Assembly (NCBI GenBank): GCA_030537765.1
Contig: JAUNVH010000005.1
Span: 1 to 64,000, forward strand
Direction: 5' to 3'
Source: Tissierellia bacterium
GTDB taxonomy: Bacteria > Bacillota > Clostridia > Tissierellales > Peptoniphilaceae
Length of the DNA stretch: 64,000 nt
The translations under genes and the position numbers were made by a program. Under the pieces are notes generated by a model. That model searched no databases. It worked only from the letters and a program-made list of their open reading frames with translations, and had not been told where the DNA came from. This document shows positions 2,579 through 35,434 of this stretch, in pieces (the first letter of the stretch is position 1; each line of letters starts with the position of its first letter).

Positions 2579-3094
2579 TTAAAATATTGTGCATATCCAC
2601 GCCAGAAGAATAGAGCCGATAACTATGCCTATCGTCTGAATTAGGTGCTCTTTTTTATTATATCCAAAAAGTTTAGTACTAAGTATATCTGCTACTTCTG
2701 GATAATAATTTTCAAAAAAGCTAAAGCCACGATTGCAAAGTAAGAACCAATCGAAAAATATGATATCGAAGGCTTTCAACAAAAGTAGCATTATCAGAAA
2801 TCTAGCAAAAAACTGCCCAAATGTAAAGCTGTTTTGAATTCATTTTAATGCTCCTATAAAGATTGAACTAGCCATTAATAACACGGCGATTATAGCCAAT
2901 GCCCAACCTAAGACATATTGTCCAAAAAAGCGTCTTTCCTTCGATTTAATGACGTCAAATACTTCTTTGGGGCAGGTCGTAAAGAATTTTTTATTCTGAA
3001 TAAATCCAACGCCCGCCCATAGCAATAGAAACAATCCAATCATCATCATAATTGCAAGCAATATTGTCATAATCATAATTGCAAATTTCCTCAC
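2579..3094 (-). pseudogene. Integral membrane protein gene interrupted by one in-frame TGA
   Basis: Two open frames (2840-3094, 84 residues; 2579-2791, 70 residues) lie in exactly the same reading frame, separated only by a TGA at 2840-2842. The 16 codons between that TGA and the first ATG of the second part are fully open and continue as IQNSFTFGQFFARFLI. Read through, the product is about 171 residues with a long N-terminal hydrophobic segment, two hydrophobic segments in the middle and one at the C-terminus. This is the continuous layout of one membrane protein. TGG to TGA would explain the lesion. I recognise no function. TGA is an ordinary stop elsewhere in this window, so a recoded product is unlikely. 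Confidence 0.7.
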
Positions 3095-3330
3095 AGTTTT
3101 AAATTTTATCTAAACTAAGTAATTATAGTTTATCATTTCTAAAATATTTTTACTACTCACAGATTCACTACTTCCTCATATTTTTTATCAAAGTGTATCT
3201 AGATTACAAATGAGTTTTATATCATTTTTTATAAAGCCGTCGGGTTTATATTTTCTTTTATGAATTTCTTTGTTTTTTTATGCCCTTTAAATTTTGCTTT
3301 GCTTTTTTGCTATATAATTTCATCTATAAT

Positions 3331-4108
3331 CTATGCAGTTATATCTTTCTTTGAGTAATTTAGAATAGAAAGTCCAAAAAATAGTATACTAATTATTATA
3401 GATAAAGTTGCCAAATTCACATCGAATCCTTTCTTAATAAATATATCTGAAAAGTCTGCTATTTTATACTGAGTAAGCACACTTAAAAACTTCCAATTTT
3501 TATTTAAATTCATAACTGAATTTAAAAAATATGGAATAAGTGCTACACCGATTCCTATTCCTACTCCAAATCCTCTTATAGTTGATAAGAAGAAGCATAT
3601 CGACGCTAATTCTATGTGTAAAATATTTAATCCTATGAAAAACGTAATTAATGGACCAATGCCAATCGAATCTCCTATAAGTAAAAAAGAAAGGAAGGAA
3701 CGAACAAACTACGCATATTAAATTAAATAGTATGATTCGTAAAATAATTGAAATAAATTTCTGTATAAGTATATTTTTTCTGCTAATTGGATGAGACAGT
3801 AAGTATTCAACAGTCCTATATTTTTCTTCATTGCTTACTGCTAAAATAGATATAAGACAAGCAAAAATTGCACCTCCAACTGTGATAACCCTAGACATAC
3901 TGGCAAAATATTCTATTGGACTTGCTACATTCAATTTATCCATCCCAAAAACTTTTCTCAATTGATTATTAAATATTGTCAAGCTATCGAGCTGAGTTTT
4001 CATTTGCGGAAATAGTAACATAAAAGCTATTAATATTACAGCTATTGAAAGACTCCACACTAGCAAGTTTTTTGAATTTCTCTTTATTTCTAATTTTGTT
4101 ATAGGCAT
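3331..4108 (-). pseudogene. ABC-2 type transporter permease, frameshifted
   Basis: The first 140 or so residues (start ATG at 4108) form an N-terminal membrane segment, an extracytoplasmic region, and the cytoplasmic motif SNEEKYRTVEYLLSHPISRK typical of ABC-2 permeases that pair with a separate ATPase. Near 3670-3700, in a C/T-rich run, the frame is lost. The minus strand then continues in another frame as GDSIGIGPLITFFIGLNIL through to KKDITA, ending at 3331. The two pieces together give about 255 residues, normal for such a permease. Just upstream lies the tail of an ABC ATPase gene, so the whole transporter is decayed. Confidence 0.75.
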
Positions 4109-4265: not shown

Positions 4266-4303
4266 AAGACGATAGTTTTACATATCATACATTCTATCGT
4301 CTT
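4266..4303 (-). terminator. Intrinsic terminator of the XRE/membrane-protein operon
   Basis: Stem AAGACGATAG / CTATCGTCTT (10 bp). On the minus strand it is followed by TTTTTT. It lies about 30 bases past the stop of the membrane protein gene. A second copy of the same stem with shared flanks is at 5118-5147. Confidence 0.85.
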
Positions 4304-4333: not shown

Positions 4334-4783
4334 CTATAATTTTTTAGCCCAATATATTTTTAATAGATTGGATATAATTGGTTGTGCTAATGCTACAATC
4401 ATGAGGGCTATAAATGCTTCATAGCTTATATAGGCTACTATTAGGGAAGCTATTGCTATTATTATTGAGAGATAAGGTATTATTGATGCGCCAGATTTCA
4501 TCCTGATTAGTATTTCTCTTTCATCATTTTCTTTTAAATACATTTTTTTCAAAATTTTCTCATTCTTTAATGCTCGAAATAGAAAACCCATATAAAATAT
4601 ACAGACTAATTCTATTCCGCAAAAAAATCCAATTACAAAATCTGTAACATTAGTCTTATTTGGAAATTGCTTATTCAAATAAAAGTTACCAATGGATACT
4701 GCTAGCAAAGCCACTGCGCAGAATATTACTAAGACTAAGATTCTTTTATTTAGTTCTTTTCTATAGCTTTCTAAGTTTTTCAT
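4334..4783 (-). CDS. Four-helix membrane protein, partner of the XRE regulator
   Basis: A 149-residue integral membrane protein with hydrophobic segments at about residues 13-32, 45-68, 98-118 and 120-140. A charged loop containing ENDEREILIRMKSG lies between the second and third pairs. Small XRE regulators are often followed by a membrane protein of this size and layout. The start lies one base past the stop of the regulator gene, so translation is probably coupled and the two form one transcript ending at the terminator at 4266. The function of these proteins is not established; a regulator-associated sensor or transporter-like role is only a guess. Confidence 0.75.
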   Translation of the reverse strand: MKNLESYRKELNKRILVLVIFCAVALLAVSIGNFYLNKQFPNKTNVTDFVIGFFCGIELVCIFYMGFLFRALKNEKILKKMYLKENDEREILIRMKSGASIIPYLSIIIAIASLIVAYISYEAFIALMIVALAQPIISNLLKIYWAKKL

Positions 4784-4784
4784 T

Positions 4785-4985
4785 TTAATCTTCTTCCTCC
4801 ATGCTAAATATTTCTTCTATACTCAGATTGAAAAACTTTGCAATCTTAAACGCCAATGGTAAAGACGCTATATATTTTCCCGTTTCTATCGATGTTATAG
4901 TTTGTCTTGTTACGCCTACTTCATTTGCGAGTTCTTCCTGAGAAAGTTTCTTCTTTTTGCGTAGTTCAGAGACTCGGTTTTTCAT
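4785..4985 (-). CDS. XRE-family HTH transcriptional regulator (small, Cro/CI-type)
   Basis: Sixty-six residues consisting almost entirely of one helix-turn-helix domain. RKKKKLSQEELANEVGVTRQ covers the first two helices, TITSIETGKY the recognition region, and the chain ends with the acidic tail FSMEEED. An upstream in-frame ATG near 5042 is rejected because AAAGGAGG sits 8 bases before the ATG at 4985 and the promoter lies inside the longer version. It is co-transcribed with the membrane protein gene. Its own promoter carries three copies of ACTTTGCATTT spaced 23 bp apart, so autoregulation is likely. Confidence 0.9.
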   Translation of the reverse strand: MKNRVSELRKKKKLSQEELANEVGVTRQTITSIETGKYIASLPLAFKIAKFFNLSIEEIFSMEEED

Positions 4986-5010
4986 TTTTATGCCTCCTTT
5001 TGCTAAGTTA

Positions 5011-5068
5011 ACTTTGCATTTTAAGTATAGCAAGCTTTGCATTTATTGTCAAGTATACTTTGCATTTT
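5011..5068. promoter_or_regulatory. Triple 23-bp-spaced operator over the XRE promoter
   Basis: Three near-identical sites, ACTTTGCATTTT at 5011, GCTTTGCATTT at 5034 and ACTTTGCATTTT at 5057, start exactly 23 bp apart. They cover a near-consensus minus-strand promoter: TTGACA at 5047-5052 and TATACT at 5024-5029, with 17 bp spacing. One site lies between the boxes, one overlaps the start region and one is upstream of the -35. The natural reading is a cooperative operator for the adjacent XRE protein; binding is inferred. Confidence 0.8.
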
Positions 5069-5117: not shown

Positions 5118-5147
5118 AAGACGATAGATTTTAAATTCTATCGTCTT
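5118..5147 (-). terminator. Intrinsic terminator, second copy of the AAGACGATAG stem
   Basis: Stem AAGACGATAGA / TCTATCGTCTT (11 bp) with an 8-base loop, followed on the minus strand by TTTTTG. It would end the mgtE and small membrane protein transcript just before the XRE promoter. Confidence 0.85.
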
Positions 5148-5380: not shown

Positions 5381-6757
5381 TTATGCCCTCAATAAAATCA
5401 TAGATGCAACTTTAAAGAATATTAGCATTGAGCAGCCGTCGACTATTGTCGTTATTAAAGGAGCTGCCATTATTGCAGGGTCCATATTGAATCTCTTCGC
5501 GACCATTGGCAAAAGACCTCCAACAATCTTTGCCATCATAACTGTAAATACCATTGTTATACAAACTGTTATAGAAATGATAAATGACAGCTTTTCAAAA
5601 AACATAAGTCTTGCTAAGTTTACAATTGCAAGTGCAAGACCAACAACAATACTCACACCAAATTCTTTCATAAATACTTTTCCAAAGTCTCTAGTCTTTA
5701 CATCGCCTGTTGCAAGAGATCTGATTACGAGTGTTGAACTTTGTGAACCGGCATTACCGCCTGTGTCCATTAGCATCGGTATAAATGTAGACAACACTTG
5801 GAATTTGCCTAATAAGTCTATATAGTGATTTATAATTCCTCCAGTGAAAGTTGCACTAATCATCAATATAAATAGCCAAGGCAATCTGTTTTTGGCCAAA
5901 CTGAAAATACTTGTTTCTAAGTAGTCAGTTTCAGAAGGAGTCATCGCAGCCATCTTTTCGAAGTCTTCCGTTGCCTCTTCTTCCATTACATTCATTATAT
6001 CGTCAAATGTTATAATACCGGCCAGTTTGTTCTTATTGTCGACTACTGGCAAAGCTATAAAACCATATTTATGAAACATATCTGCTACATACTCTTGGTC
6101 ATCATCTGTATTTACATATATGACATCTTCTAGCATTATATCTTCAATCTTATCATTATGATCTGCTGTTACAAGTGTTCTAAGCGAAACAAGCCCTATT
6201 AGATTGTCATGATTGTCGACCACATAACAAGAATAGATTGTCTCTTTTTTTAGGCCCACTTCTCGTAAGTAATCGAGCGCTCGCCCAACTGTGTAATTTT
6301 TGTTTAAAGAAACATATTCTATAGTCATCAAAGAGCCGGCACTATCTTCTGGATATTTTAAGAATTCATTGACCAATGCTCTCTCTTCTGGTTTTGAATT
6401 TGCCAAAACTCTATCTACAAATTCGACAGGCATCTCTTCAATCAAGTCGATCATATCGTCAAAATAGAGTTCTTCAGTTATGTTTTTAAGTTCTTCCTCG
6501 TTTACTGCTGAAACTATTGCCCTTTGTGTCGATATTTCCAAAAATGAAAATACTGCCGATGCCATTTTTTGCGGCAATAGTCGAAAGATTAAAAGCGCCA
6601 GATGGTGATCCTCGAGATCATCCATAATTTCGGCAACGTCTGCTCCGTTCATCTCGCTCAAATAATCTTTCAATTGTCTAAGTTTTTTGTTTTCTATCAT
6701 TGAAAGTATATCATCTTTTTCAAAGATAACTCTTTCTTTCATCTTTCTTTCCTTCAT
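5381..6757 (-). CDS. mgtE: Magnesium transporter MgtE (downstream copy)
   Basis: MgtE channels admit Mg2+ across the inner membrane and close when cytosolic Mg2+ fills sites between their regulatory domains. The 458 residues show the full order: an acidic helical N domain (about 10-130, with DDMIDLIEEMP), two CBS domains (about 140-265, with YGFIALPVVD), a plug helix, then five membrane helices from about 290. The pore signature PMLMDTGGNAGSQSS is present. The start at 6757 is preceded by GGTGAT at 5 bases. It follows a second mgtE after only 16 bases, so both are on one transcript. Confidence 0.95.
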   Translation of the reverse strand: MKERKMKERVIFEKDDILSMIENKKLRQLKDYLSEMNGADVAEIMDDLEDHHLALLIFRLLPQKMASAVFSFLEISTQRAIVSAVNEEELKNITEELYFDDMIDLIEEMPVEFVDRVLANSKPEERALVNEFLKYPEDSAGSLMTIEYVSLNKNYTVGRALDYLREVGLKKETIYSCYVVDNHDNLIGLVSLRTLVTADHNDKIEDIMLEDVIYVNTDDDQEYVADMFHKYGFIALPVVDNKNKLAGIITFDDIMNVMEEEATEDFEKMAAMTPSETDYLETSIFSLAKNRLPWLFILMISATFTGGIINHYIDLLGKFQVLSTFIPMLMDTGGNAGSQSSTLVIRSLATGDVKTRDFGKVFMKEFGVSIVVGLALAIVNLARLMFFEKLSFIISITVCITMVFTVMMAKIVGGLLPMVAKRFNMDPAIMAAPLITTIVDGCSMLIFFKVASMILLRA

Positions 6758-6773
6758 ATCATATCACCACTTT

Positions 6774-8111
6774 CTATATTGGAAGCAGGGTCTTTGCTAT
6801 TGCAAAATAAAAAATAAGTGCAACTGCGTCAATTATTGTCGTTATAACTGCACTCGACATAATTGCAGGATCAAAGCCAACTCTTTTTGCTAAAAGCGGC
6901 ATGCTTCCACCCAACATATTTGAAAAAACAACTGTACTAAGCATCGCAATCGCAATAACTGATGCAATGCCAAAGGAAACTCTGTCTATCATAAAGGCTT
7001 TTATAAATCCACCAATTCCTAAAGCCAGGCCAACTATTAGCCCAACTCTGATTTCCTTAAATGCAACTTTAGGCAGATCCTTAAATTCTAACTCCCCAAT
7101 TGCCATATTTCTAATTGCCAAAGTTGAACTTTGATTGCCGGCATTGCCGCCAGAACCTGTAAGCATTGGAATAAAAGAGTTTAAAACAATATAATGTGCC
7201 AGTACGGCTTCATAAGAGCCAATAATCCTGCCGGTAACCGTGGCAGAAACCATTAGCACCAAAAGCCACACGACTCTATTTTTTGCCAATTTAAAAATTG
7301 AGCTATCTAGATAATCGTCTTCTGTCGGACTAATTGCAGCCATCATCTGCATATCTTCTGTGACGGAATCTTCCATCTCACGCATAACATCGTCAAATGT
7401 TATTATGCCTGTCATTCTGTCTTCATGGTCTACAACGGGCAATGCAAGATATCCATATTTGATAAATTGTTCTGTGACATAGTCGGTCGAATCACCAGTA
7501 TGGACTCTCACAACTTCGTCTTCCATTATATCTTTTATATAATCAGCTGTATTTGCAACCACAAGTTCTCGTAAAGATACGAAGCCTAATAAGATTCGAT
7601 CTGGACTTATGACATAACAAGTATAAATTATCTCCTTATCAACGCCTTCTCTTTTGATATAATCCATTGCATCTTTTACTCTCATCTCTGGGCGCAGCGC
7701 AACATATTCATTAGTCATAATCGAGCCGGCAGTATCGTCTTCGTATTTTAAAAACTGATTTATCATTTGTCTATCAGCTTTACTAGTATTTGCCAATATC
7801 TTTTTAACTGCATTTGCAGGCATCTCTTCAAGTAAATCTATCTTATCATCCATAAATAGTTCCGAAAATATATAATTTAATTCATGTGGATGAATCGAAT
7901 TTACAAGATCTAATTGCTGCTCAATTGCCAAATATGAAAATACTTCAGCCGCTTTCTCTTTTTGCAACAATCTAAATACTATAAGATTATTGGGTGCGTC
8001 CAGCTCATCGATAAGGTCTGCAGCATCTACTATATTCATATCTTTCAAAAACTCTTTCAATTTTTGAAACTCTTTATCCTCAACTAGCTTTAAGAAATCA
8101 TCAATTTGCAT
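6774..8111 (-). CDS. mgtE: Magnesium transporter MgtE (upstream copy)
   Basis: A second complete MgtE of 445 residues with the same order: N domain (FMDDKIDLLEEMP), paired CBS domains (YGYLALPVVD, GIITFDDVM) and five C-terminal helices with the pore motif PMLTGSGGNAGNQSS. It is clearly diverged from the downstream copy while keeping every block, so the pair is an old duplication and both are likely functional. AGGTGA lies 5 bases before the start. I looked for a magnesium (M-box) riboswitch in the 180-base leader and saw none. A promoter at 8203-8231 and a leader hairpin are visible instead. Confidence 0.95.
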   Translation of the reverse strand: MQIDDFLKLVEDKEFQKLKEFLKDMNIVDAADLIDELDAPNNLIVFRLLQKEKAAEVFSYLAIEQQLDLVNSIHPHELNYIFSELFMDDKIDLLEEMPANAVKKILANTSKADRQMINQFLKYEDDTAGSIMTNEYVALRPEMRVKDAMDYIKREGVDKEIIYTCYVISPDRILLGFVSLRELVVANTADYIKDIMEDEVVRVHTGDSTDYVTEQFIKYGYLALPVVDHEDRMTGIITFDDVMREMEDSVTEDMQMMAAISPTEDDYLDSSIFKLAKNRVVWLLVLMVSATVTGRIIGSYEAVLAHYIVLNSFIPMLTGSGGNAGNQSSTLAIRNMAIGELEFKDLPKVAFKEIRVGLIVGLALGIGGFIKAFMIDRVSFGIASVIAIAMLSTVVFSNMLGGSMPLLAKRVGFDPAIMSSAVITTIIDAVALIFYFAIAKTLLPI

Positions 8112-17923: not shown

Positions 17924-18562
17924 TTATTCAGCTGTTTCTTCAGCCTCTTCTTCTTTTGATTCTTCTTTAGGCTCTTCAGTAGTTTCAGCCTGTTCTTCAG
18001 TAGCTTCAGCTTTTTCTTCAGTAGCTTCTTCTGCTACTGGGGCTTCGGCTCCTTCTTCACCATCTTCTTCTTTTTTCTTTGCTAGCGCATCCATTAAGTA
18101 TACAAATTTGGATAGCGGCGATCTCATGCTGCCAAGAAGTTTTGCAATAAGAACTTCTCTCGCTGGGATCGAAGCAAGTTCCTTAACTTGATCCACATCC
18201 ATAATCTTGCCATCAACAAGGCCTGCCTTAATTTCTAATTTAGGATTATCTTTAGCAAAATTCTGTGTAATTCTAGCTGCCGATACTTCATCCTCTGTTG
18301 AAAAAGCAATTGCATTTGGACCTGTCAAAAACTCTGCAAATTCATCATAGCCCAAATCTTTAAACGCAAATCTCATCGAAGAATTTTTGTAAACTTTATA
18401 GTCTACATTTGCCTCTCTATATTTGCTTCTAAGCTCTGTAACTTCTTGAACGTTCAAGCCTCTGTAGTCAACTAAGACTACTGCCGGAGAATTTTGAATT
18501 TTTTCTTTAATCTCCTCGACAATGGCTTTTTTTCTTTCTAATACTTTTGCACTTTCGCTCAC
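17924..18562 (-). CDS. rplJ: 50S ribosomal protein L10 with long acidic C-terminal tail
   Basis: The stalk base protein that anchors L7/L12 dimers. The core is standard: [29 protein letters not shown], and the C-terminal helix around [13 protein letters not shown]. The usual length is about 165-175 residues; this one has 212. The extra part, about 162-212, is almost only Glu, Ala, Thr and Lys (for example [15 protein letters not shown]) and is predicted to be disordered and strongly negative. The start is GTG at 18562 with AAGGAGG 7 bases upstream. Expression is preceded by a classical L10 leader and attenuator-like hairpin. Confidence 0.97.
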
Positions 18563-35346: not shown

Positions 35347-35434
35347 TATCGATTTTTGTGATACTCACTATCGATTATTCAAACTTCTATCATATATCTT
35401 ATTATAGTATACTTTACATGATATTCAATATCAT
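35347..35434. promoter_or_regulatory. Control region between lysR-type gene and importer operon
   Basis: ATGATATT-C-AATATCAT at 35418-35434 is a perfect 8-bp-arm palindrome. It is placed just after a TATACT box (35408-35413), where a bound protein would block the operon. CTATCGATT occurs twice in the direct orientation, near 35347 and 35369. LysR sites of the T-N11-A class fit here, but which repeat is bound is inference. Confidence 0.55.

Follow-up and report, generated by a model that had tools for sequence, protein, structure and literature searches.

The window, i.e. the whole 64,000-nucleotide stretch of Tissierellia bacterium DNA analysed here, carries on its minus strand a two-gene operon composed of a putative repressor and a four-helix membrane protein, nothing else being encoded. 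The first gene (4788..4985, minus strand, with its stop codon at 4785-4787) codes for a 66-residue protein of the XRE type (Cro/CI-type helix-turn-helix; HTH_3, 3.3e-18), a predicted autorepressor, whose recognition helix reads TRQTIT(31)S, residue 31 being T. Comparison of this protein with the CylR2 structure 1utx by phmmer gave an E-value of 2e-12 over 62 residues (3-64), and an E-value of 1e-16 was obtained against 9k3w. The second gene (4337..4783, minus strand) starts 1 bp past the stop codon of the XRE gene and codes for a membrane protein of 149 aa, with four hydrophobic segments, present in single copy in the genome.

A hairpin (AAGACGATAG/CTATCGTCTT, 4266..4303, strand not assigned) is located 3' of the membrane gene and is likely to mark the end of the operon. 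A second copy of the same stem is found upstream of the operon, at 5118..5147, where on the minus strand it resembles a terminator of the preceding gene. These are the only two copies in the genome, and they flank the operon, as would be seen after insertion of the cassette at a terminator. The proposal that twin hairpins generally mark such insertions was rejected, as a shared stem was found at 1 of 63 loci; at one homologous locus (L039) a 32-bp exact repeat is common to the upstream and downstream flanks of the pair. The ORFs surrounding the operon include a MgtE transporter, a fragment of an ABC-2 permease, a methylglyoxal synthase and others. Upstream, two neighbouring ORFs similar to MgtE-type divalent cation transporters occupy 5381-8111, the first of them confirmed by a domain scan. 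The ABC-2 permease ORF (3500-4108) is only 202 aa long, covers the first half of the Pfam model and ends in a tail which looks frameshifted; it is probably a decayed gene.

Promoter and operator dyads

Three sites matching ACTTTGCATTT on the plus strand, at 5011, 5034 and 5057, had been described in the initial annotation as operators covering a TTGACA-17-TATACT promoter. The positions are correct, with 0, 1 and 0 mismatches respectively, and the spacing is exactly 23 bp; the promoter is also present under the sites, on the minus strand. The reading of the sites as operators in themselves had to be changed: they serve the minus-strand gene, reading TGCAAAG towards it, and they represent no more than the left arms of 18-bp dyads, with consensus TGCAAAG-YNNR-CTTTGCA. 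The promoter matches the consensus at 11 of 12 bases and has a TG ahead of the -10. On the minus strand, the -35 hexamer TTGACA occupies 5047..5052, beginning at 5052, and is separated by a 17-bp spacer from the -10 hexamer TATACT, which occupies 5024..5029, ending at 5024; the Shine-Dalgarno sequence AAAGGAGG is found at 4993..5000.

The three dyads, all given on the minus strand, are embedded within these elements. O1 (TGCAAAGTATACTTGACA, 5047..5064) holds the -35 hexamer in its right arm, while O2 (TGCAAAGCTTGCTATACT, 5024..5041) has its left arm in the spacer and holds the -10 hexamer in its right arm. O3 (TGCAAAGTTAACTTAGCA, 5001..5018) ends where the Shine-Dalgarno sequence begins, and is expected to cover the transcription start. 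The right arms which include the hexamers, CTTGACA in O1 and CTATACT in O2, are off-consensus, and O3 is the dyad nearest to it. The half-site CTTTRCA is one base away from CTTGACA and two bases away from CTATACT, so that one repressor could read both.

The window was scanned for evenly spaced triples of exact 8-mers, which were found at two places, the operator array and a codon repeat within an ORF at 17972, and in none of 50 dinucleotide shuffles of the window. In the codon repeat (17972-18020), a 10-mer is present in three exact copies, with a period of 21 bp, in the acidic tail of an ORF of 212 aa, which we take to be, as seems likely, ribosomal protein L10. Single degenerate sites, with up to 2 mismatches, number 82 against 63.9 expected (sd 7.9), a value reached by one of 100 shuffles; since single sites show no clear enrichment, it is the array, rather than the word, that constitutes the signal.

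Conservation and specificity of the array

Starting from 110 homologous loci, to which a 29% paralogue (L002) had not been admitted, a set of 93 was obtained by dropping one locus with a short upstream region and 16 at 90% identity. Two or more dyads are present within 200 bp upstream of the XRE gene in 74 of these 93 non-redundant homologues, three or four in 46 and the complete 23/23 array in 40, while 17 of the 93 have no such dyad directly upstream. Among 1,860 shuffled sequences (20 per homologue), one dyad was found in 59 and two in none. The same layout is seen before homologous genes of other genera. As the motif had been derived from the same homologues, the count was repeated by using the window's TGCAAAG alone: an exact 23-bp pair was found in 34 of the 92 other homologues, the commonest distances being 23 and 46. 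The search for spaced sites before close homologues, indicated in the initial annotation as the test that could refute it, thus found the sites in place and brought no refutation. In the alignment of the 40 arrays the arms are near-invariant, with 1 to 2 bits in most of their columns. The central NN and the greater part of the linker positions vary, remaining well below 1 bit; values are higher (0.6-1.2 bits) in the A-rich linker that follows O2.

The XRE regulator has homologues in 121 of the 398 genomes sampled from the window's phylum and in 173 of 294 from a haloarchaeon's phylum; where annotated records were consulted, most are reported as plain helix-turn-helix transcriptional regulators. 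Judged from the DNA, the conservation of the putative operator is unusually wide and extends across domains, to many bacteria and even archaea. An actinobacterial record (L004, a Gardnerella piotii contig, 3001-3649) contains a XRE gene 82% identical to that of the window, together with a similar promoter array and partner, and may represent either a recent transfer or a contamination. In two genomes (loci L234/L257 and L241/L246) two small XRE genes are found in divergent orientation, no more than 0.6 kb apart.

Searches were also performed starting from the DNA. The O1-O2 pattern, with one mismatch allowed, was found in five of the 398 phylum genomes, including the window's own (control, 0), in all cases preceding a small XRE gene. 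At three of the four matches outside the window, this gene is followed by a DER membrane protein (see below) of 146-150 aa; at the fourth, no DER membrane protein was found in the stretch translated. In 130 family genomes the perfect palindrome was found at five places (control, one place), all of them located 29-52 bp before XRE genes identified independently by protein search. Taken together, 10 of 10 matches found by DNA only, the window's own included, precede a small XRE gene, which argues that the operator marks this gene and little else. Within the window's own genome, 47 strand matches with up to one mismatch were counted (control, 9), an excess which may reflect base-order bias; only 5001-5064 forms an array, and no regulon beyond the operon was detected there. 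A lone match at 35401, in between a LysR gene and one for a binding protein, is probably due to chance. The exact O1-O2 pattern was absent from viral contigs; relatives of the XRE protein are encoded at 16 viral loci.

Recognition helix, membrane partner and archaeal relatives

Residue 31 of the recognition helix is associated with the third base of the operator: T31 goes with C (TGCAAAG), I31 with T (TGTAAAG) and G31 mostly with G (TGGAAAG). Considering only loci with two or more sites, in the discovery set C was found at 45 of 48 T31 loci, T at 16/16 I31 loci and G at 5/7 G31 loci. A held-out set was built from 125 new loci, 123 usable and 90 after redundancy removal, leaving base 3 free in the site finder; here the counts were 2/2 for T31 with C, 13/13 for I31 with T, 17/20 for G31 with G and 15/16 for S31 with T, the last rule not having been stated before the count. 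Three of the 48 T31 discovery loci lack C, and G31 loci carry either G or T; where the helix has N31, H31 or an A in position 32, such an array is mostly absent. When a tree of 124 rows was built with this residue 31 masked, a minimum of 10 changes was counted for residue 31 and of 17 for base 3; one well-supported independent pair of changes was found (1 to 5 when unsupported branches are included), and none contrary. The covariation is clade-structured, a strong association which includes few independent events and for which significance is out of reach. Residue 31 predicts operator base 3 in held-out homologues as well, which indicates that the XRE protein itself almost certainly binds the dyads.

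The initial annotation had also paired the regulator with its membrane protein, and this pairing is real and widespread: a DER partner is found at 85 of the 93 homologues, a count in which one of 11 partners called as upstream (L099) is actually downstream. Across 36 aligned bacterial partners the columns of Asp87-Glu88-Arg89 alone are invariant (36/36), and this DER motif sits between the second and the third hydrophobic segment, in a loop that by the positive-inside rule would be cytosolic. The AlphaFold (AF2) model of the window's partner is all-helical, with a mean pLDDT of 92.4. A Foldseek search gave 0 matches at E up to 0.001, a VIA fold search returned common helical bundles only, which are uninformative, and no solved relative was found. 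No Pfam or NCBIfam family matched above cut-off, nor was any PADLOC or PHROG match obtained. DER is shared with DUF2178/DUF6442/DUF6773 membrane proteins, although the window protein remains below every cut-off (17.4 bits against DUF6442, where the cut-off is 25), and DUF2178 is absent among its Pfam matches.

No conserved gene was found downstream of the pair, the largest cluster being made up of 5 loci with ABC ATPases. The cassette therefore seems to regulate only itself, with the membrane protein as its output. At two loci (L104 and L106) the third gene encodes a small DUF1648-like (SdpI-type) protein, just below cut-off for L104, the one scanned, which hints at an immunity link.

The archaeal set comprised 98 loci, 97 usable and 65 after redundancy removal. 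The membrane gene comes first in 56 of the 65 operons. The same dyad (TGTAAAGNNNNCTTTACA type), with at least 11 of 12 fixed bases, precedes the operon in 20 of 65, at positions which are approximate, some membrane-gene starts being guesses; shuffled sequences gave 0. Archaea have no -35/-10 promoter elements. Where archaeal dyads occur in tandem (11 cases), the distance between them is 17 bp in 7, otherwise 16, 18 or 21, and never 23. The archaeal partners share DER and match the profile of the bacterial ones weakly around it (hhalign, 91.9% over only 31 columns); one of them (L062) matches DUF2178 at 7e-11.

Proposed regulation by the pair and comparison with known systems

The data are best explained by a CylR2-like autorepressor whose triple operator is embedded in the promoter and for which the membrane partner is the probable input; we assign to this reading a probability of about 0.7. 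Autoregulation by the 66-residue XRE protein, as proposed in the initial annotation, is strongly supported by the arrays before 74 of 93 homologues, the matches obtained from DNA and the covariation of helix and operator. Autorepression itself appears very probable, because the dyads overlap both hexamers and are specific to the protein's own gene. We infer that XRE dimers would bind the three 18-bp dyads and blanket their own strong promoter, O1 taking the -35 and O2 the -10 as right arm, while O3, one step on, would extend the coverage to the Shine-Dalgarno sequence. The membrane protein would probably provide the signal input, acting through the cytosolic DER loop: a membrane signal would take the repressor off the DNA and raise the level of the pair itself, as SdpI does with SdpR. 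This release, suggested by the gene pairing and by the SdpI/SdpR and CylR1/CylR2 precedents, is rated slightly below even odds.

The distance between the dyads had been attributed to the alignment of proteins on one helical face, an explanation which proved weak on calculation and was set aside: 23 bp correspond to 2.19 turns at 10.5 bp per turn, so that neighbouring proteins would be 69 degrees out of phase and would wind around the DNA, not line one face. O1 and O2 are 23 bp apart in 51 of 53 cases; with O1 using the -35 and O2 the -10, this is the distance of hexamers with a 17-bp spacer. In relatives with two sites (G31, S31 and some I31 loci) a dyad in the spacer is mostly missing, and the O1-O3 distance is 43-48 bp. 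The same period is kept with no second hexamer forcing it between O2 and O3 (44/48) and between a rare upstream O0 and O1 (4/4), hence promoter geometry alone does not fully account for it, and dimer contact or the duplication of a 23-bp unit could contribute. That archaeal tandem dyads are never at 23 bp argues for a distance fitted to the bacterial promoter and not for a fixed packing distance. A cooperative array, where the period would come from contact between neighbouring dimers and the overlap with the hexamers would be secondary, is in line with those O2-O3 and O0-O1 distances, with the mere 5 bp between neighbouring dyads and with the 23-24 bp between the lambda OR operators. We consider it rather unlikely, given the phase difference, the relatives at 20, 24 and 43-48 bp, the mostly 17-bp archaeal distance and the single HTH domain of the protein, with no obvious oligomerisation domain; the period could also persist through common descent of the arrays.

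Other readings assign different roles to the same elements. A type II-like toxin-antitoxin pair, where the XRE protein would be an antitoxin repressing through several operators and the membrane protein the toxin, would suit a small operon with the regulator first and multiple operators, and the XRE protein weakly matches HipB/HigA-type antitoxin models, below cut-off. This reading appears improbable, as the database searches with the membrane protein reported above returned no family above cut-off, and the membrane-first order in archaea and the invariant DER, predicted to be cytosolic, fit a signalling partner at least equally well. In a dual switch, as in Cro/CI regions, partial occupancy, e.g. 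of O1 alone, would activate or tune the promoter, and full occupancy would repress it; the three dyads are indeed not identical and differ in their right arms, yet in the window each overlaps promoter elements or the start region, so that any occupancy should block RNA polymerase, and the promoter is already near consensus. Such a switch is distinctly improbable. The sites might even belong to another regulator which happens to control the operon; this is very improbable, since the sites track the XRE family across phyla and into archaea, occur as arrays almost nowhere else and covary with the XRE recognition helix.

Lambda OR, where three dyads of 17-18 bp cover promoter DNA at intervals of about 23-24 bp, with the 66-aa single-domain repressor Cro, resembles the window in the three dyads and in the size and architecture of the repressor; the window differs in having one promoter and no opposing repressor, and in the right arms of O1 and O2, which are the hexamers themselves. 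In LytTR systems such as HdrRM and BrsRM a regulator and an antagonistic membrane protein share one operon; the likeness is by general description, and the DNA-binding domain is LytTR, while that of the window is XRE. SdpR is an ArsR-type repressor, hence not XRE, unlike that of the window. The SdpR/SdpI pair has the same two-gene layout of repressor and membrane protein as the window operon, although a Pfam scan of the window's membrane protein gave no match to the SdpI/DUF1648 domain. In Bacillus subtilis, SdpR/SdpI is a two-gene operon coding for an autorepressor and a polytopic membrane receptor which sequesters it (PMC1626106).

CylR2 of Enterococcus faecalis is, like the window protein, a 66-residue single-domain XRE protein, and CylR1 is a small membrane partner as in the window, where the likeness consists in the adjacency of a 149-aa gene 1 bp downstream. 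According to the respective papers, CylR2 acts at a promoter and its release is ascribed to the membrane partner, by a mechanism given as unknown (PMC3709268, PMC5454873, PMC12304293). CylR2-like regulators use an inverted-repeat operator at the promoter, to be compared with the predicted 18-bp dyads over the -35, the -10 and the start region of the window. CylR1/CylR2 targets a divergent lanthipeptide toxin operon, whereas no lanthipeptide gene was found in the flanking ORFs scanned; the window cassette further differs in having no conserved target beyond the pair and in its triple, promoter-embedded operator. No description of the promoter layout, the residue-31 rule or the archaeal operator was found in the open-access literature, which lacks most subscription journals.

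More tentatively, the pair may be a portable, self-contained signalling cassette of bacteria and archaea, with a one-residue operator code, a half-site which doubles as -35 or -10, and a DER protein which frees the repressor; it would regulate only itself, with the membrane protein as output. If so, archaea would use the same operator with another promoter machinery and another spacing. The residue-31 rule offers a means to locate operators by sequence alone, and the membrane partner belongs to no named family. How CylR1 signals to CylR2 is stated as unknown in the report on that system (PMC3709268). A conserved operator, a one-residue specificity rule and an invariant partner motif make the question of this type of signalling testable.
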